Shown in pieces: positions 632 to 39,013 of a stretch of DNA of 64,000 nucleotides. Both the position numbers and the translations under genes were made by a program. Position 1 is the stretch's first letter. Each line of letters starts with the position of its first letter. Where the stretch lies: contig OZ004587.1 in NCBI GenBank assembly GCA_963924555.1, forward strand, positions 8,572,075 through 8,636,074, written 5' to 3'. Below the pieces are notes generated by a model. It was not told the DNA's origin. It saw only the letters and a list, made by a program, of their open reading frames with translations, and ran no database searches. Source of the stretch: Crambe crambe (Eukaryota > Porifera > Demospongiae > Poecilosclerida > Crambeidae).

Positions 632-3600
632 AACCCTCCCTCACCCTCACTAATCTCACTCAGCTACTACAGGATATGAGGGATTTGGATTGTGCGAGTC
701 ACATTCTCAACATCCCCTTCCCAGTGTATATGCAATCTAAGAAGTTCAGTGAGTCAGAGTTTGTGAAGGCTTTGGGGGAGTGGTACCTGAAAAATTACCC
801 ATGTCCATCATGGAGACATGTGGCTCGTGGTCTATATAAGGAGGGGGAGCATGGAGTGCTGGAAGTGTTGAAGAGTCGCTACCTTAAAGGTGAGTCTTGT
901 GGTCTGTGATGGTTTCTGGAACTGTAGCATCATTACATGTGAGCCTCATCTCCTCTCTCTCACTATCCTGACCTGCAGTGGTTCCAACAGTGATAATCAC
1001 AGAGAGACTAGTTGGGAGTGTACATTGATTGTATGGGGAGGGGCATTAGGTTAAATGGGGAAATAGATTGAATGTCTGTATGAGTATTTACTTAGATGAG
1101 TATTAGCACCACCCCCAAACATGGACCATCCCACCCCCATTGTTTGTTTTTTTTTGTTATCTGGGATTCCTAGTGCATATCCTCCCATCTCATAGAGTTG
1201 GTCATCCAGGACTTCTGATATGTGTTTATTAGGATGATTTTTCAAGTCCACTCTAAAGTCGATTTGATATACCTCAAGAGTAAGGGATGTGGGGACACTC
1301 CTTGATCCAATCAATCTGCTACCCCCCCCTCGAATACATATCTCCTGCATACCATACAGCACGCCCCCACTTCTTAATTAAATCCCCCCTTAATATTCAT
1401 ACCTCTGTAGGTGAAATACCTGCTACAATCATGTAGTAATACTTTTGATTGTAGGTTCGTCTGAGTCACGTAGATTGTACAACGAGGCAATGAGGGAAGG
1501 ATCCATCAGAGCTCAGATCAATAAAATCCTCCTCTATGGAGCTCCCGGGACAGGCAAGTCCAGCTCCATGGACCTGTTTGTCGGTAACCCTCCGAGAGGG
1601 GTTAGAACGAGCACACCTCTGGCAGCTCGTCCAATCACTATGTTCCATCTTGGTGTCACCAGCAAGGAGTGGAAGAAACTTCCTCCAGAGGAAAGAAGAC
1701 GAATATTATCCAGAGCCATAGCTGCTCACTCTCCTCCTGATGCCACCCAGTCCCCCGAGGGTTCTTATTCTCCCGAAAGTTCTGATTCTGGTGAGGATTC
1801 TGACTCTGGTGGTGAAATGTCTACTGGAATGGAAGGTGGTAGCGATCCTAAATGTAGAGAAGCTCACACCACAGAAGACAGATCTTCAACACACGATCGA
1901 AATCTTCGAGTGCACCCAGTGTCTCTCTCTAGTCCAACAGCCGCTAGAAAACCAAAGCCAAAGAGAAAGAGCTCACTGCCATCCATTACCACACATGACC
2001 AACTAGTAGAGCTGATGGACGAGTGTTTCAAGTCAGACAAACCCCTATCTACCTTTCGTAAGCTCTACCTGATTGACTCTGGAGGGCAACCACAGTTCCA
2101 TGAGGTGCTACCCATATTTCTTCGTCGAATGTCGTTGTATATTTTTGTCTTCAAGTTATCAGAAGAGCTCGCCACCAAACCCATGGTGGAGTATTTCAAT
2201 GGTAGTGGGAAGTGTGTGGGGACCCCTTACCGATCATCCCAGTCTAATGAGCAGCTGTTGAAGCATTGTCTCCGCACCATGCATACTCACAGATCTGACA
2301 GAGGTGAGTGTTCCAGAATCATGATCGTGGGGACCCACAGGGACGAAGAACATAAGTGCACGAGTGAATCGCGACAGGAGAAGAATAAGAAGTTAGCAGA
2401 TATACTTCTTCCAGTGTTCAAAGATGAAGTCATCTACTACAAGCAGAGTGAGTTGATCTTTCCAATCAATGCCAAAGATCCTGCAGAATTTGACAAATCC
2501 ATTTCAAAGAATGTCCAAGGTTTAGTCCTAGACGAGTGTAAGCCTGTCTCTATAGATGTGCCTCTCCGGTATTTCTCTTTGGAAATACTCCTAGAAGAAG
2601 TGAGCCTTTCTCTAGATAGAGGTGTACTGAGTAAAGAAGAGTGCCTTAGAGCAGCAAAAGATCTCTACTTTGATGAGCACTCTCTCGATGCGGCTCTCCA
2701 GTTTCTAGATGAGATTTCAGCAGTCTTCTATTTCCCTGAGATTCTGGAGGGTGTTGTATTCACCAACCCTCAGGTCCTCTTGGACAAGGTGACCGAGTTG
2801 GTGGTGAAGATTTTCTGCTTGACGGAAAATATAGGTGGTGAGCCTATAGGATTAACTGGAAGCTTGCAGAAGTTCAAAGAGCATGGCATCGTTAGCTTAG
2901 ATCTTCTCCAAAGGGAAGAATTTAACAAGCATTACGTTCCTGAAATCTTTGCTCCAGTAGATCTGGTGAAGCTGTTCAAAGAGTTGCTTATTATAGCCGA
3001 CTTTAGTGATTCAGAGTACATCATGCCTGCCCTTCTTCCTGTCCTGGAAAAGGAGAAGGTTAGTAAGTATCGCGTGTCCAATGATTCCACTTTAGCTCCC
3101 CTTGCTCTGTCCTTCCCTCTCGGGGGGCCTCGTCTCGGCACCTATTGCAGTCTTACCTGCTTTTTGGTCTCCCATGACAACCAGTTTCCTTGTCCTTGGA
3201 AGATCATGCTAATCCCTAGTTCCAACACTCCAGCTTGCCTCAGTCGTAACTGCACCAGGTTTTCTGTTCCTCGCTACCCTGGCTTCATCACACTCATAGA
3301 TACATTCACACATTTTGAAGTACACGTGGACACCGCTGAGAAAGTGCACAGCAAGATGTCTTCCTTTGTCTCCCGAGCCATATCTGCAGGTCTGAGGAAA
3401 GCAACACAGGTCCTTGGCTACAACAACTCCATCCCATCGAAGGCACTGCTCTGTCCATGTGATCGTGATGGGAGTGACCCTCATGTCGCCACGTTTGGAG
3501 ATGGAATCTGGACCTGCAGTCGAAATCCAATTGAATTTGGAGACCTCACTTCAAGACAGCTGCCATGGTGTGAACAAGAAGATCCTCTTCCTACAAATGG

Positions 3601-3928
3601 TATGTCTCTTTATGCATACAATGTACATTACTATTTCATGTCGATTATTCTCTTGCATGCAGCACCACTGGACTTGAGGACAGTGCAATGTGCATTGTGG
3701 GATGCTAAATGCAAGTGGTATAACCTTGGTCTGGAGCTTGGCTTGGACAAACCAACTCTCGATGCAATTAAAGTTGACTGTCAAGAAGTGCAGGACCGTT
3801 TTCGAGAAGTTCTTTCTAAATGGCTCAATTTAGTGACCCCATCATGGAAGGCACTGGTGAAGGCCCTGAGGGCACCCACTGTGGACTTTCCTCATATAGC
3901 CTCCAAGATTGAAAGCAAGTATATTTGA
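632..3928 (+). CDS. Death-Roc-COR-Death multidomain GTPase (5' partial)
   Basis: Three exons are visible: 632-889, 1455-3599 and 3663-3928. The phases match at both junctions, and the third exon ends in a TGA stop. The first exon encodes a death-fold domain. The second starts with a P-loop (GAPGTGKSS), then a Ser/Glu/Asp-rich insertion, a G3 motif DSGGQPQF and a G4-like motif VGTHRDE, which is the usual Roc-domain form of NKxD. A COR-like region follows (SLEILLEEVSLSL, DAALQFLDE, GVVFTNPQVLLDKV). The last exon is a second death domain (LGLELGL...LDAIKVDC). ROCO proteins are regulatory GTPases; with death domains they probably act as signalling or cell-death adaptors through homotypic death-fold contacts. 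The intron at 3600-3662 is 63 bp and stop-free in frame, so retention would add 21 residues. The 5' end lies outside the window. The family call is firm; no one-to-one ortholog is claimed. Confidence 0.8.
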
Positions 3929-7657: not shown

Positions 7658-10600
7658 TTATTCCTGATTTAAATCAGTTCTAGGAAGAACATTGCTACTG
7701 CTGGTCGATCCCAAAGCAGGTGAAAGAATTCTTCCACTTCCTTTAGCCTTCCTGAGTGTTGGACTAACACTGCCATTGGTTTTTCTCTTCATATGGGCCT
7801 CATTCTTCACCCGTGGAATCTTCTCTGTCGGAGTCAATGGGGGAGGTGAAGGGTTGTATGGAACAGGGTATTGGAATGAGCTTGCTGGAGAGGTGGTGGA
7901 CTGGAATGGAGATGAAGCTCCGGCAGTCGAAGCTGCTGACGAGTAGTAGCTGGTTGGTGAGATGGATCTGGAGGCATTAGAAGAAAGAGGGAGGGAGAGA
8001 GGGAGAGAATCGCCTCCTGAAATCCCCTCAAAGTCAAAGCCTGAGGGTCCGGGGTTGCCTGTTGGTGTGAGGGGGACAGGGGTGGAGCAGGAACCAGTAC
8101 GAAGAGCTGCTTTCTCTTCCTCTCTCTTTTTCAAGCAAGCTGCCTTAGGATTCAAATGACGATCTTTTACCTGCATAGAAAACAGTGATAGAATAATCTG
8201 TCTGCCTCTATGCTTTGGCTGTTGGTACTGTACCTGGGACTCTAGACTGGATATGACAGCCACAGCCTGATGCAGAATCATCAGCTTGGTTTGTGCCTTC
8301 TCACATTGAAGATAGTCATGGCAAATCTCACCCAACTCCTTAAACGCCTCATTAATATCACGTACACGAATCCTAATACATGTTTCTTTCATTAACAATC
8401 CTTTACCATATCACCCAAATAAAGTTTTTTTGTTGTGCCCACCCTTTACCTTTCGCGTTGGTTATTGGCATTCCTCCTCTCCTTCTCTTTGCTGTGTCTC
8501 TCCTCGTCTGTGCGATACTTGGTCCTCTTGGCCCCTCCTTTGGTCTTCCTCTGGTTGATGGGACTCACTTGATGAGAGTTGGAGGTGGGAGGGACAGAGG
8601 AGATACTCTCATTGCCTCCCCCTGCCTGGATGAGAGGGGGCGGGGGCTTCCGATCACCAGATGAAGAATGAGACACTAGAGAATTGAAATGAATGGAACC
8701 TTCCATATCCCCATTATATAAATTGGTCACAATGAGGTTATTAAACCTCCACAACCCCATTATATTAATAATGAGGTTGTCCCTACTAATTAAGCCTCAT
8801 TGGCTAACCTTCTGTATTATCATTGGCAGTGACATCATCATTACATGTGGCTGAGATGGCTGTGACAAGGGGGAGGCGTTCAGAGATGTCCTCTCCAGGG
8901 GGCACGTGCATCACTTCCCCTCCACTACCCAACTCCTCCACGTGGTTAGCCATGACTGAGATGGCATCATCCAGACACTGTGAGGAAATGGATCAGATAA
9001 CACTCTACATACATTATGCAAAGGATGAGCAGAAGTTTACTGAGGATGAGCAGAAGTTTTACCGAGGATGAGCAGAAGTTTACTGAGTTATACTAAGGAT
9101 GAGCAGAAATTATACTAAGGATGAGCAGAGGTTTACTGAGTTATACTGAGGATAAGCAGAAGTTTACTGAGTTATACTGACCATGTGTTCATTGTTAGCA
9201 GAGACAGAAGGTTGCCATTGGTGGTGAACATCAGATATATGGGCAGACTCTGGTGAATAAATCTATTCACAAAAATTGATCACACAGTAAATGCTGCATG
9301 ACTTTGTATAATAGCACTCACCAAGCAGACTTCAGACTGAGAGTTGGCCGAGCTTTTTCTGGAGAGATTAGTGCAGGCCTGCTCAGGGGGGAGTGGTCTC
9401 GAGTCGACGAGAGTGGGCGTCCCTGGAGGGGCGTGTCCTGGGTAGGATGGAGGAGGTTCCATTGGAGTGGTGGCATGTGGAGAAACAAGGATTGGAGCGC
9501 CGTGGAACAACTGTACATAATGCAAGATAGTAATGTCTTCCAAATAATGCACACCATAGGACATACCAAGTCACCAGTGGCTGGGTTTTGGTGGAGGACC
9601 AGTTGAGGGGCTGCAGGGGGAGGGGGTGGAGGAGGATGGAAGGCCGTGGGTGTGGACGGAGTAGGGGGGTGGTAACTTGGTGGTTGCGCAAAGTGTGCTG
9701 GGTGATTGGGAGGGGGGAAGTGAGGAGTGGTGGGCGTGTTTGGTGGGTGTGGTGGCGGGATAGGCGGTCGGACAAGCGCTTCCTCGGAGGGACCAATCAC
9801 AAAGTGCTGTTCGGGAAAAGACGGGGAGCGGATGCAATTGGGACTTGCATATTCAGGGGACATGCCCACCCACGGGTGTTGGAACGTGAACCCTACCCCT
9901 TCCATATTATTCACTCTCCCTGTCTTCATTTCTCTATGTCCTGCAAAAAAAACAAACAAAAAAAAACCAGAACAATAATAATAGTCATTTGAACATGCAG
10001 TATTTCATAACACTTCCAAAAATACTGGTAGTACTGAAGCAAATTATGGTAGCATGAATATCATTTTCATAACACTGCCAATAATAGGATACGGTAGTAC
10101 TGAAGCAAATAGCATGAATACAGAATTTCATAACACTGCCAATAATAGAGTACTGTTATGTGACAACATTGTGACAAGACATTTTAGCTTTCAAGAAAGC
10201 AGTGTGCATTGAAGTGGCTAGCAGAGCATGGGAAGTGAGTGAGAAGGAAACTGACCATTATGAAATAATTTCCGACCACTTTATTGTTTTCCCATAGTAC
10301 TGAGAACCCATAGCAACCACTGGCCAGACCCTCACAATACTATGACCAAGTCTACTACTCTAAGACTTCTCTCCAGTCAGAAAGCTTAGGCTCTCTCCCA
10401 AGACTGTCATACCACTCACTTGCCCAATTAAACACTGACTTCTTTTTAATAACGAACATAAAAGGCAGTCTCGTGCATGCACAAGCTGCTTTAGTGCTCT
10501 ATTCTGAGGAATATACTAAGTTTGTAAGCTCACACATGAATATTTGGTGTATGCAGATCCTTAAAAATATCTATTCTGAGGAACAGCACACCCCAAAAAA

Positions 10601-34600: not shown

Positions 34601-36635
34601 CCAGTTGGGTGAGTCAAACTGGTTCACACTCGCCCTCCCCTTCCACTCACGCTCCCCTTCTATCCCCCTTTCCCCTCCCCTTCCACTCACACTCCCCTTC
34701 TATCCCCCTTTCCCCTCCCCTTCCACTCACACTCCCCTTCTATCCCCCTTTCCACTCCCCTTCCACTCACCCTCCCCCCTTCCATCCTTTCCCCTCCCCT
34801 TCCACTCACCCTCCCCTTCTATCCCCCTTTCCCCTCCCCCTTATGATAAATTATTCCATTCCATAATTACTCCATTTAACTACTCCCTCAAACACCCATG
34901 TTATGATAACAAAGAGACTTGTTTCTTCTACCACCTCCTCATTTCAAGTGTGTAATGAAATTGAGTGCTCTAATTGGCGTGATAATGAACTTATACATGT
35001 GGAGTGAGTAATTGAAGGAAAAACAATGTCTAATTAATTTTAGTGGTATGTGTTGCTAATTGGAGTGAGTGGCTGTTGCATAGATTAGGTGCCTTATGAG
35101 TGGGCGTTAGCTATCCTTAATAGATTAGCTGTCTTCATTATATTAAAATGTTGCTCATAAATCTGTGGTTCATATGACATTATTCAAATCTGTTAATGAG
35201 ACTATTGCTAGCATGGTAACTGCCAGCTAATATTTTTTCTTCATGACATTGTCATTTGAGTGGGTGTTGATTTGCCATGCTTGGTAAGACAAGAAGGAAA
35301 TACAAAGGAACAGGAAACAGTTCTGAAGCAAGGAAACAGGAAGCATTCCTCAACTCTATAGAACATGACATAAAAGTTGGATGGTTAATTATTGTTTCAA
35401 GTGTCAGAGTGTATCCCCCGCATGTGTCCTGCATGTGTCCTGCAGGGCCGTATCCCCTTTCACCTTTATAACTCTATCAGTAGTAGTCCATCATTAGCCT
35501 TTGATGTGAGAGCTCCTCCGACATTGATGACTCATCCTGTGTTTGGATGATGCTCTAGCTCTATTTCCTGGACCAAGGGCAGCACCGCACCCTTTGAAGA
35601 GTTCTGTGTGGTTGTGGCATGTGGGTGGGGGACAGGGGATGTGGTGTTTTGTACGGTGCATCTATTTACTGAGGTCAGGAATTCCATTGTACCAGAGTCG
35701 TCCACACATAAATACATAAAGACAGGCAAGTAAAATATAACCAAGTTAGTCACGCACGGGTAGTGGCTATTTGTGTGCAGTACGCCTTATTAAATAGTGG
35801 TAATAGAAGTGCAGAAATGCAAGGGGTTGGATATTAAGTGATGGCTATTTGTAAGATGGCTGACACAAGTCTTGAAACCTAAGGCTCATTGCTATGAGAC
35901 AACCTGCTATTAGAGATCAAGCAACAGCGTAAGGTTTCTTCAATTCCTTGACTTTATGACAAGCTCCCTCAAAGTTCCTCAATGATTAAAATGTGCTCAT
36001 CTTCAGAATAGAAACCTTAATGAGAATGTACTCAATTCCTTGACCTTTACAAAATGTGGTTGCAACATCCCTCTCCAAACTATTCATGTGTAGGAAAGGG
36101 AAACATGCAAATCCACAAAATATGCCCATATGATCTTTTTGGACAGGTCTGAGTAATGTGCATGGCACTGACATACATTTTGTTGTTGTTGCTTTTGTTT
36201 ATTTGTTGTTTTCTAAACAATTGGTGTGATTGTTGTGCAGTAAGACGCCGCTGGATATGACTCAGTTTGTAGTAGGAGACAAGCCCAAGACAAGCTACAA
36301 ACTCTATGCCGTCTCCAACCACTTTGGCACTCAATCAGGAGGCCACTGTAAGTCAGCCATTCATTCTGCAAGGGACCAACAATCCTATAATAGTGATATG
36401 TGGTTAATTCCTCCCCTGTAGATACGGCCGTATGCTTAAATCCCTACAACCAGACATATTATAACTTTGATGATCATGACGTGAAGGAAGCTACTCCCAA
36501 ACAAATCAAGGTATGATTGAATGACTGTTGACTGCAATGACTTGTGAGTTTTTTTATTAATTGATGTAGAGTGGTGCTGGCTATCTCCTATTCTACACTT
36601 CACTGGACCATCAGCCACCTAGAGCTAAATTCTGA
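22654..36635 (+). CDS. USP8: Ubiquitin carboxyl-terminal hydrolase 8 (USP8/UBPY)
   Basis: Sixteen exons were modelled: 22654-22751, 23034-23211, 23277-23471, 23535-23773, 23835-24015, 24121-24341, 24564-26953, 27130-27476, 27534-27629, 27845-27975, 28149-28599, 29092-29132, 34438-34608, 36241-36347, 36422-36510 and 36570-36635. The total is exactly 1667 codons including the stop. In order they encode the N-terminal USP8/MIT-like helical domain ([13 protein letters not shown]), a rhodanese-like domain (SPQDLYQLL...[12 protein letters not shown]), and a long Pro/Gln-rich linker. A charged coiled coil, a WW domain, DRSKKP-type motifs and the USP catalytic domain follow. Catalytic residues are present: Cys box [13 protein letters not shown], His in GGHYTAVC and Asp in FDDH. 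The zinc cysteines CNYC and CSSC are intact. USP8 deubiquitinates endosomal cargo and ESCRT-0. At 1666 aa it is longer than human USP8 because of the linker. A 5.3-kb intron splits the catalytic domain. Confidence 0.95.
24352..24510. mobile_element. Pogo/Tigger-like MITE, copy 2, in a USP8 intron
   Basis: Left terminus TGGAACCTCCAATGAAGGAC and right terminus GTCCATTATTTGGAGGTTCCA are inverted repeats of each other over about 22 bp. The element fills most of the 222-bp intron 24342-24563. It continues the upstream reading frame for several codons, which could be mistaken for coding sequence. Confidence 0.8.
25333..25580 (+). repeat. Coding minisatellite in the USP8 linker
   Basis: Four to five 51-54 bp units encode a [17 protein letters not shown]-type repeat. 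All units keep the frame, and most differences are silent or conservative (PPTS/PPIS, GGL/AGL). A poly-Gln stretch (about 25697-25895) follows directly. Confidence 0.95.
26605..26690 (+). other. WW domain segment of USP8
   Basis: The segment encodes a full WW signature: first Trp in GWEKRLD, then GRYYYVDH and the second Trp in TTHWNPP. Human USP8 carries a degenerate WW-like domain in the equivalent place. A PPSY motif, a potential WW ligand, is encoded upstream at 26065-26076. Confidence 0.9.
28620..28750. repeat. T-rich foldback sequence in a USP8 intron
   Basis: AAATTTTCGTGGTTTAGCC on the left is matched by the inverse TTAACCACAAAAATTAATGA on the right, around a long T/G-rich centre. This is a short inverted-repeat structure, possibly a MITE remnant, in the 492-bp intron 28600-29091. 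Confidence 0.5.
30815..31125. repeat. Imperfect direct duplication
   Basis: Two copies of about 145 bp share TTATGTGTGTTCATGTGCAC, then AAGTCATGAC, ATCTTCATCTTCCT, GTAGTCTGAAGG and CATTCCATAAGGACTTTCT. They begin near 30819 and 30986. The second has a small insertion near 31055. Confidence 0.85.
32055..32487. mobile_element. MITE with 23-bp terminal inverted repeats
   Basis: The left end TACCGTAATCGTATAAATTT(TCG) is the exact reverse complement of the right end (CGA)AAATTTATACGATTACGGTA. The 433-bp element has no open frame of note and carries CG-rich internal patches unlike the surrounding intron. It is a non-autonomous DNA transposon by structure; the autonomous family is unknown. Confidence 0.85.
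34622..34845. repeat. Polypyrimidine tandem repeat in a USP8 intron
   Basis: About five copies of a 40-46 bp unit containing CCCCTTCCACTCACACTCCC and TTCTATCCCCCTTTC start 14 bp after the splice donor at 34609. It mimics a Pro/Ser-rich reading frame. Confidence 0.93.
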
Positions 36636-37440
36636 TCAATCAGCTCTCATTCTTCTTTATGTATACAATATTCATATATAACTGAAGTGAATGATGACAG
36701 TAATTTTTTTGTTTGTTGTTGTTGTTGTTGTTGTTGTTGTTTCATGAATACTGTTCGTCATTAATCATTGCCATTGTTTTGTTTTTAAATCAACATTCCA
36801 TTTATATTTCTTTCATGTATAATAATTGATAATAATAATTATTATTATTATTATTATTTCAGTAATAATTGGAGTATGATAGTACTCTCTAAGTAGGGAT
36901 GGCATGGATTGCCCCATTGCACCAATACAAAACATTTTTTTCATTATTAATAATAAATAGTAAATAATAATGATAGCAGACTACTTCTTTGTTAGTACTG
37001 GGTATGCAGACAAAACGTGCAAGGAGGACATAATATAGCAGGTCAGGAGACGAGACGTCTAGAAGACTACAGATGTATGGCTTCAAAATGACCAATTATG
37101 TGTCTAATGGTTCACCGATCACTTATTTCATCCATGGCCGTAACTGTTTTATGTAAGTACACTTTCTTGCTACTAGCTAGCTATAGGCTACTGACTGAAA
37201 ATGAAGATTAATAAATTAATTTTTATTAATTTTGCGCACGCGGATATTAAACGATCGAGTTGGATCCTGCATCAGTGCAAAGTTCCAGGAATCCTGTCAT
37301 AGGAACATCCTTAGTAGTGCAGCAGTCAAGTAACTATAAAAATCAAGAGATGGGACCAGAAAGTCACCAGACAATCTTACAGAAAATCATTATAGCAGCA
37401 GCTCAGCTACAAGCAACCATCAACAGATATCACTATCACT
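36636..37440. other. USP8 3' flank and promoter of the first FGF-like gene
   Basis: AT-rich spacer with the (TTG)n and (ATT)n tracts. A TATAAA sits at 37335-37340, about 100 bp before the ATG at 37441, and is a plausible core promoter. No coding sequence was recognised; the open frame over 37260-37538 overlaps the FGF-like gene out of frame. Confidence 0.5.
36711..36741. repeat. (TTG)n microsatellite
   Basis: About nine TTG units lie just downstream of the USP8 stop. An (ATT)n run follows at about 36837-36859. Both are in the spacer before the FGF-like genes. Confidence 0.9.
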
Positions 37441-38040
37441 ATGACTTCTCACTTCTTCTTTTTCTTCTTGAATGTGGCAATTTTATACCAGAGTGCTCTT
37501 TCTATGCCGATCACGCCAACATTGACAATCCTCAGTGAAAACTCTGGACAACATGTGGAAATGCTAGAAGATGGAACAGTACGTGCCACTGGAGATCCTA
37601 ACAGCCTTAACTCCCAGTGGTTTATTCGTGCACACGAAAGAGTATTCCGCTTTGAGAATGCAAAGTACTTGAATCACTACTTGGTCATAGCAAAGAATGG
37701 AAACAGGGTATCTCTTCTCTCACAATATCTGAACGAACCTCCCACAGAAGGTTCTACTGCAGAAGCAACTATGTGTAACACCACTACTCAATTGAATGCA
37801 TCCTCAGCCTCAGGTGATCAACCAACTGCCAGTGGGCATGGAGCCAGTGGCAGTGGGACCGAACCAATTTGTTTTTACGCTGATTGGATCCAAGAACAGG
37901 GTAACCGCCCAAGGACTTGGAGGTTGAAAACATTCACAGGTGATTCACACTGCTTTGTGGCCTTTGATAGGAATGGCTACCCAGAAGCTGATCTGTGCTC
38001 TGAAAATTCCAGCAATCTCCTGACCATCAGAGCGAGATAA
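37441..38040 (+). CDS. Secreted FGF-like beta-trefoil protein A
   Basis: A single-exon gene of 199 aa. The first 20 or so residues are a signal peptide: hydrophobic, Phe-rich (HFFFFFL...), then ALS|MP. The mature region follows the fibroblast growth factor pattern: GQHVEMLEDGTVRATGDPNS resembles the FGF block 'xxLQILPDGTVxGTRDxxS', then an aromatic/basic strand (RVFRF) and LNHYLVIAKNG, resembling 'xRYLAMxxxG'. Near the C-terminus CFVAFDRNGYPE resembles 'WYVALxxxGxxK'. FGFs are extracellular ligands of receptor tyrosine kinases that use heparan sulfate. A Ser/Thr/Gly-rich insertion (about residues 101-142) interrupts the trefoil. Few basic residues are seen where heparin-binding would be expected. 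It could be another beta-trefoil family, but the order of motifs favours FGF. The paralog lies 258 bp downstream in the same orientation. Confidence 0.65.
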   Translation: MTSHFFFFFLNVAILYQSALSMPITPTLTILSENSGQHVEMLEDGTVRATGDPNSLNSQWFIRAHERVFRFENAKYLNHYLVIAKNGNRVSLLSQYLNEPPTEGSTAEATMCNTTTQLNASSASGDQPTASGHGASGSGTEPICFYADWIQEQGNRPRTWRLKTFTGDSHCFVAFDRNGYPEADLCSENSSNLLTIRAR

Positions 38041-38192
38041 CAGAACTCAATCTAGACAAATTATTTTTATTTAGGCTTATATCTCTTAAAAACAGATCTG
38101 CTTTATTATTTGTGTATCAAAATATCATATAATGAAATACAGTGGAATGAAAATTATCATAGAAAACAGTGCATTCATATGTGCGCGTGCGC

Positions 38193-38214
38193 AGCATCTA
38201 TGCGCATGCGTGAA
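38193..38214. promoter_or_regulatory. NRF-1-like GCGCATGCGT sites upstream of FGF-like B
   Basis: TGCGCGTGCGCAGC followed by TATGCGCATGCGTG gives two NRF-1/alpha-Pal-like motifs about 20 bp before the TATA box of the second FGF-like gene. Assigned from motif similarity only. Confidence 0.35.
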
Positions 38215-38234
38215 TGATAAAATACAAACTCTGT

Positions 38235-38240
38235 ATAAAA
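38235..38240 (+). promoter_or_regulatory. TATA box of FGF-like gene B
   Basis: TATAAA (in TGTATAAAAGC) lies 59 bp upstream of the ATG at 38299, a fitting distance for a short 5' UTR. Confidence 0.55.
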
Positions 38241-38298
38241 GCTGATATGAGAACTTCAATGGACAGAAAAAAATAGTGAGATCCAGTCAAGGACCATT

Positions 38299-39013
38299 AT
38301 GGAACTTTGGACCAGTTTCATCAGCTTCATGATCATTCTTTCTTCGCTTCAACTCATACAGGTACAACTGAGCCAATCTCTACCAGGAGAGAAAGTTTTC
38401 TACCAACTCCACTCGTGTGCCTCAGGTCGATTTGTGTCTGCATTCAAAGGTGGTAGAGTACATGCTTATGCTTCTAGACCAAGTAAGTGATTCATTATGA
38501 TATTGTCATAAAGCATCAGATTCTGTTGTTATTATTGTATGGTTTTACCATGGAAGTGTAGCTAGTGGATGACTTACACACAATGGAACAAACTTATGCC
38601 AGCTCTATAGTTCCTCAACTAGCTTTCTATCACTAAATGTCTAATTCAACCTGTGCCTTTATCCTCCAGATCGAAATACTAGATTCATCTTGACTTCGAG
38701 GTACAATGCTTCTGCTCATATCTTGACAATGGCTTTCGAGAATGTTAAATTCAGGGATCGATACCTGGTGATGGACAGAAGAAGAAACAAGCTCAGACTT
38801 GCACATCCACAGAATGGCAATGAACAGTTTAAGATCATACCAATCTTTACAAACCCAATCTTCAGAGCAATGCAGGACTATAGAGGCTGTTATGTGGGAT
38901 TCGATCGCATGGGAAGACAGGTAGACCCTTGTTCAATCTCTTCCAATGACCCGCAGGCTTGCTTACGTCTAACAATATTAATTAGGAGAGTTAAGAAGCT
39001 TTACTCAAAATAA
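38299..39013 (+). CDS. Secreted FGF-like beta-trefoil protein B
   Basis: Two exons (38299-38482 and 38670-39013) give 175 aa. A signal peptide occupies roughly the first 24-27 residues (hydrophobic FISFMIILSSLQLI). The mature protein matches FGF strand order: FYQLHSCASGRFVSAFKGGR, then NRNTRFILTS, FRDRYLVMDRRRNKLRLA (FGF 'RYLAMxxxGxL'), EQFKIIPI, and YRGCYVGFDRMGRQVDPCS (FGF 'xxYVALxRxGxxKxG'). It ends LTILIRR. The intron falls at the junction equivalent to FGF1/FGF2 intron 1, just after the 'GxVxGxRxxSD' strand. A basic run (RRRNK, RRVKK) could bind heparan sulfate. Not a close copy of protein A, so the tandem duplication is old. No other beta-trefoil family fits as well, but no profile search was possible. 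Confidence 0.7.

Follow-up and report, generated by a model that had tools for sequence, protein, structure and literature searches.

Two adjacent genes in the genome of the demosponge Crambe crambe, which we call A and B, probably encode small secreted ligands of the FGF family in its wide sense. They are old tandem duplicates, in which the predicted surfaces towards the receptor kinase and heparan sulfate have diverged. Both genes lie in the window, by which we mean the whole stretch of 64,000 nucleotides that was analysed.

The two genes have the same orientation (forward strand) and are flanked on the 5' side by a ubiquitin protease gene (UCH domain), with its last exons near 36240-36640, and on the 3' side by an ALG13-like glycosyltransferase-28 gene that runs from about 39640. 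Gene A (37441-38040, + strand) is a single exon with an intact open reading frame of 199 aa. Its FGF-like domain is split by an insert, or linker, at 37741-37857 on the + strand (residues 101-139), a stretch of 39 residues rich in Ser, Thr, Gly and Ala that is not present in B and that contains two N-glycosylation sequons, N113 and N119. Gene B consists of two exons on the + strand, which upon splicing give an intact protein of 175 aa. Exon 1 (38299-38482) encodes residues 1-61 and the first base of codon 62, comprising a signal-peptide-like N-terminus and the start of the FGF-like domain, and exon 2 (38670-39013) encodes the remainder of the domain together with a basic C-terminal tail, RRVKKLYSK. 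The intron between them (38483-38669, + strand) is a gt..ag intron of 187 bp in phase 1.

By eye, the N-termini of both proteins are hydrophobic and resemble signal peptides, and neither protein has a long domain beside the trefoil region. We were also able to find by eye a putative TATA-box-like element on the + strand in front of each gene: TATAAAAA (37335-37342), about 100 bp upstream of the start codon of A, and TATAAAAG (38234-38241), 65 bp upstream of that of B. A bacterial promoter scan gave signal at the level of shuffled sequence. The preliminary description of this DNA had claimed two adjacent genes with FGF-type strand motifs; the genes are there, an intact single-exon A and a two-exon B, and so are the motifs, EMLEDGTVRATGD in A and RYLVMDRR and GCYVGFDRMGR in B. 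Further away in the window, an open frame of 837 aa (1415-3925, + strand) begins with a P-loop-like stretch, scores weakly for a Death domain (20.1 bits against a cut-off of 22.6), and possibly encodes a Roc/COR-type GTPase; a bHLH domain that looks E-protein-like by eye is found at 7661-8410 on the reverse strand.

The similarity between A and B is well above chance and shows them to be homologous. Their best BLASTP segment has E=3e-6, and after removal of the linker from A their global alignment score is 80 (shuffles, 9.5 +/- 5.0) and their local score 92 (shuffles, 26.9 +/- 4.5), with none of 1000 shuffles as high in either comparison. The two proteins are identical at 26% of 123 aligned positions, and with identity this low the duplication must be old, which agrees with the diverged and ancient tandem pair that had been proposed. 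Common to both are the motif FEN.K......YLV and the motif C.V.FDR.G followed by D.CS; the latter means that a pair of cysteines, C171/C186 in A and C135/C149 in B, is common to the two proteins.

At the sequence level, FGF is closer to both proteins than other beta-trefoils are. In Pfam the best family of each is FGF (PF00167), in every case under the cut-off of 24 bits: A scores 19.0 bits (E=0.0015), A without the linker 23.4 bits (E=6.4e-5, profile positions 5-109 of 124), with RCC1_2 as the runner-up family (E=0.073), and B 15.1 bits (E=0.024, residues 35-151, profile positions 3-114). The FGF assignment in the preliminary description was thus upheld by this check as regards the best family and was not upheld as regards the cut-off, which neither protein reaches. 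No Pfam family was matched by the exons of B taken separately and no PDB chain by exon 2 of B alone, and a search of NCBIfam gave nothing of use.

The PDB was searched at E<=10 with a two-sequence profile, made of A without residues 101-139 and of B. Among the best 60 of its 78 matches there were 48 FGFs, 11 designed trefoils, which we take to be FGF1-derived, and one unrelated chain. This set is redundant, with 46 of the 48 FGF chains being FGF1 entries or variants, and most of the FGF1-variant matches within the best 60 of 78 cover only the first lobe (about profile positions 8-42). Almost full-length matches of the profile were obtained with FGF8 (E=0.0019, positions 6-128) and FGF18 (E=0.11, positions 5-132). 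FGF8 was also the top match of B alone (E=0.33), which matched one unrelated chain in addition. A alone had 9 matches, with designed trefoils at the top (E=9.5e-5), FGF1 at E=0.44 to 0.9 and two unrelated chains, and A without the insert had 21, namely 10 designs, 8 FGFs and 3 unrelated chains, two of them at E=0.013 and 0.026.

We further used HHalign with a profile built from segments of ten human FGFs. A without the linker aligned to this profile with a probability of 93.1% over 107 columns, A and B together at 91.5% over 98 columns, and B alone at 14.0% over 105 columns. None of 200 shuffles reached the score of A (45.3; best shuffle 21.2), and none of 200 reached that of B (24.7; best shuffle 21.1). 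On the basis of Pfam, the PDB profile and HHalign, the nearest family by sequence is FGF, rather than fascin, IL-1, ricin or MIR, in line with the earlier claim, and FGF descent of A and B is likely.

Neither protein is a canonical member of the family. The FGF signature PS00247 occurs in all ten human FGFs and is absent from A and B. Of the 27 positions that at least 8 of the 10 FGFs have in common, 8 are retained in A and 6 in B, and the cysteine that is present in all ten is kept in A and not in B. At the columns of FGF2 E105 and Y112, which are among the residues that contact FGFR, A has D and P, and B has N and a gap, in a part of the alignment that is uncertain. In FGFs the basic loop before the last strand binds heparin; at this position A and B carry D-x-C-S / D-x-C-S-x-S stretches instead, and B has its basic tail. 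A carries a net charge of -5 and B one of +18, compared with -3 to +17 for the ten human FGF segments. The intron of B is in phase 1, the phase assumed here for the first intron of FGF2, and stands three codons upstream of the assumed FGF2 site in an ungapped alignment; A has no intron. The "canonical" FGF order of the preliminary description does not hold as worded, as the Pfam cut-off is missed, the signature motif is absent, and most residues of the receptor contacts and of the heparin loop differ.

Structure prediction yielded a pLDDT of 39.3 for A as a single sequence and of 41.1 for A with the exons of B as rows, in both cases too poor for AlphaFold to show any fold. A Foldseek search with the model of pLDDT 41.1, which is too poor to be informative, returned 5 matches (best E 5.1) and no trefoil. 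Since these models are unusable, we infer a single beta-trefoil fold for A and for B from their alignment to FGFs.

Similar to paracrine FGFs of the FGF8/17/18 type, A and B have a signal-peptide-like start followed by one domain, and B aligns almost over its full length with FGF8 and FGF18, at 19.0% and 21.1% identity. They differ from this group in having no signature motif, no FGFR-contact Glu and Tyr and no heparin-binding loop, and in the Cys pair that they share. A resembles FGF1 and FGF2 in the DGTV strand turn and in the conserved cysteine, and its best FGF1 match is in the first lobe. Its identity to these two proteins is 21.8% and 19.7%, respectively, and it differs from them in being acidic, in the 39-residue insert and in its signal-peptide-like N-terminus, as FGF1 and FGF2 are made without a signal peptide.

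The availability of the genome allowed searching for candidate receptors. Kinase searches gave at least 160 and at least 166 matches, with more than 100 tyrosine-kinase-like exons, and a search for Ig I-set domains gave at least 150 matches. Among the matches listed, none pointed to a gene that combines Ig domains with a tyrosine kinase, which is not proof of absence; the nearest I-set and kinase matches, judged by eye among those listed, lie about 59 kb apart. The three best matches of the FGFR1 kinase domain were rejected as FGFRs because of their build, one of them bearing a kringle and being, in our reading, a ROR/MuSK-like receptor kinase, and the other two having only the kinase in their ORF. 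A cluster of receptor kinases on contig C6 (0.45-0.62 Mb; L065, L066) combines kinase domains of the RET/FGFR/PDGFR type with a non-Ig ectodomain, and its kinase relatives in the PDB are an EGFR construct (E=2e-58), RET (7.7e-49), FLT3 (9.7e-45) and FGFR1 (3.3e-44). The genome thus holds plausible candidate receptors of the wider RET/FGFR-type group.

The same searches revealed further loci. A large array of receptor-kinase genes, mostly on one strand, occupies 5.42-6.05 Mb of contig C16 (e.g. L028, L058), with open frames of about 500-880 aa and Thr/Ser-rich stalks, and is apparently intron-poor. Many evenly spaced Ig I-set exons are found on contigs C9 (2.6-3.4 Mb) and C13 (3.5-3.9 Mb), which suggests large tandem families of genes with Ig domains.

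We propose that each protein would be one FGF-type beta-trefoil behind a signal peptide, and that A and B are most likely extracellular ligands whose receptors would sit on neighbouring sponge cells. Most of the residues for FGFR and heparan sulfate are missing and the two proteins differ in surface charge, so that they probably engage another receptor surface and have probably diverged in function. B could stay near the cell surface by means of its basic tail; A, being acidic and probably glycosylated, would diffuse.

It is conceivable, if rather doubtful, that A and B descend from FGF-type trefoils but have lost signalling by way of a receptor kinase, and that they serve as secreted matrix, glycan-binding or defence proteins. 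In favour of this reading are the extensive loss of receptor-contact and heparin-loop residues, the acidic nature of A with its 39-residue Ser/Thr/Gly-rich insert, and the lack of an Ig-type FGFR gene among the matches listed. However, the motifs of the lobes follow one another as in FGF, the genome has RET/FGFR-type receptor kinases, and nothing positive was found for a glycan-binding or defence role.

Less probable still is a descent from another lineage of beta-trefoils, such as fascin, with a secreted A and B that resemble FGF through a common fold pattern and not through ancestry. Fascin shares with A and B the beta-trefoil make-up predicted for them, and it cross-matches the FGF model: a fascin ORF from the same genome, taken as control, scores 236.5 bits with Fascin (PF06268) and 34.5 bits with the FGF model, which is above A and B. 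Conversely, FGF1 and FGF2 score about 154 bits with FGF, and 27.7 and 25.6 bits with Fascin. With such cross-matching, the discriminating point is which family scores best, and Fascin ranks first for neither A nor B. B scores 13.9 bits with Fascin (E=0.063), below the cut-off of 23.1 bits and nearly equal to its FGF score, but A has no Fascin match in Pfam at E<=10, with or without the linker.

Trefoil families other than FGF and fascin were compared through Pfam and the PDB alone. IL-1, ricin B and MIR gave no Pfam match at E<=10 for A or B, and none of the best 60 of the 78 PDB matches of the A and B profile was a chain of fascin, IL-1, ricin or MIR. HHalign of A and B with the fascin of this genome gave a probability of about 0.5%, in an uneven contest with a thinner profile of two near-identical sequences. 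Fascin also differs from A and B in having four trefoils in one cytosolic protein.

The sponge host that had been supposed for this DNA is confirmed by the mitochondrial contig of the assembly (143,139,886 bases in 119 contigs). This contig (C119, 19,532 bases) carries COX1, and TGA is read as Trp. It has 22 tRNA genes according to ARAGORN, and 22 tRNAs and both rRNAs according to Rfam, all on one strand, and Pfam confirmed ORFs for ATP9 (ATP-synt_C), ATP8, ATP6, COX1 and NAD4L. A mitochondrial atp9 gene together with a near-complete set of tRNAs on one strand is a demosponge pattern, and not one of cnidarians or bilaterians. The host is therefore a demosponge, and a cnidarian or bilaterian host is ruled out.

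We searched the same genome for relatives of the pair. PF00167 gave 10 matches, and among the first 5, which were inspected, L001 is a fascin by Pfam, L002 and L003 resemble the same fascin by eye, and L004 and L005 show no recognisable gene. This search listed neither A nor B and is therefore not sensitive. With A and B as queries, we recovered only the genes themselves, a fragment on contig C15 and two weak matches (E about 1.1). FGF18 as query gave one match (E=1.8), which does not look like FGF, and FGF1 gave none; TBLASTN of A and B within the window found the pair only, and A had no relative in a scan of viral contigs. This insensitive profile search and the searches with A, B, FGF1 and FGF18 as queries brought up no further FGF-like gene in the genome.

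The fragment on contig C15 (1559842-1559932, L012) is a copy of about 91 bases of gene A with 86% identity, including an 11-base gap, and no flanking similarity was seen. Such a fragment might suggest that one or both ORFs are non-functional, either relics or chance ORFs, but this is hardly credible, as the intact frames and the motifs common to both proteins at 26% identity need long-lasting constraint, and the clean gt..ag intron of B restores its frame.

An FGF ligand "morpholog" was reported from the sponge Spongilla in 2023, on the basis of predicted structure only (PMC10176882). This paper describes an alignment of residues 61-230 of the Spongilla protein with residues 54-194 of chicken FGF4 (11.8% identity, RMSD 0.89 over 543 atoms), and states that Fgf receptors had previously been annotated in Spongilla. 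As described there, the morpholog is like A and B a sponge protein likened to FGF, missed by standard sequence methods and with a single FGF-like domain; unlike it, A and B are two tandem genes and are linked to FGF by sequence profile. A eumetazoan origin is stated for growth-factor receptors such as FGFR in another study, where FGF signalling is held to have arisen with Eumetazoa, citing Bertrand 2014 (PMC7260276). A search of mostly open-access literature found no further report of a sponge FGF ligand. The idea that such genes would push the origin of the ligand earlier, put forward as a novelty in the preliminary description, is no longer new, since the Spongilla morpholog is already in print.

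We suggest, tentatively, that A and B may come from an FGF-type ligand that predated the split between sponges and other animals, and that A and B may signal without the pair of Ig-type FGFR and heparan sulfate, for example through one of the RET/FGFR-type receptor kinases of this genome. If this is true, FGF ligands would predate the FGF-FGFR-heparan sulfate code. Within the literature searched, sponge FGF-like ligands have so far been known from one structural match, in Spongilla (PMC10176882). The tandem pair described here, tied to FGF by sequence profile, provides concrete genes for testing the age of the ligand. The changes in its predicted receptor and heparin surfaces are relevant to the question whether the ligand preceded the known receptor code.
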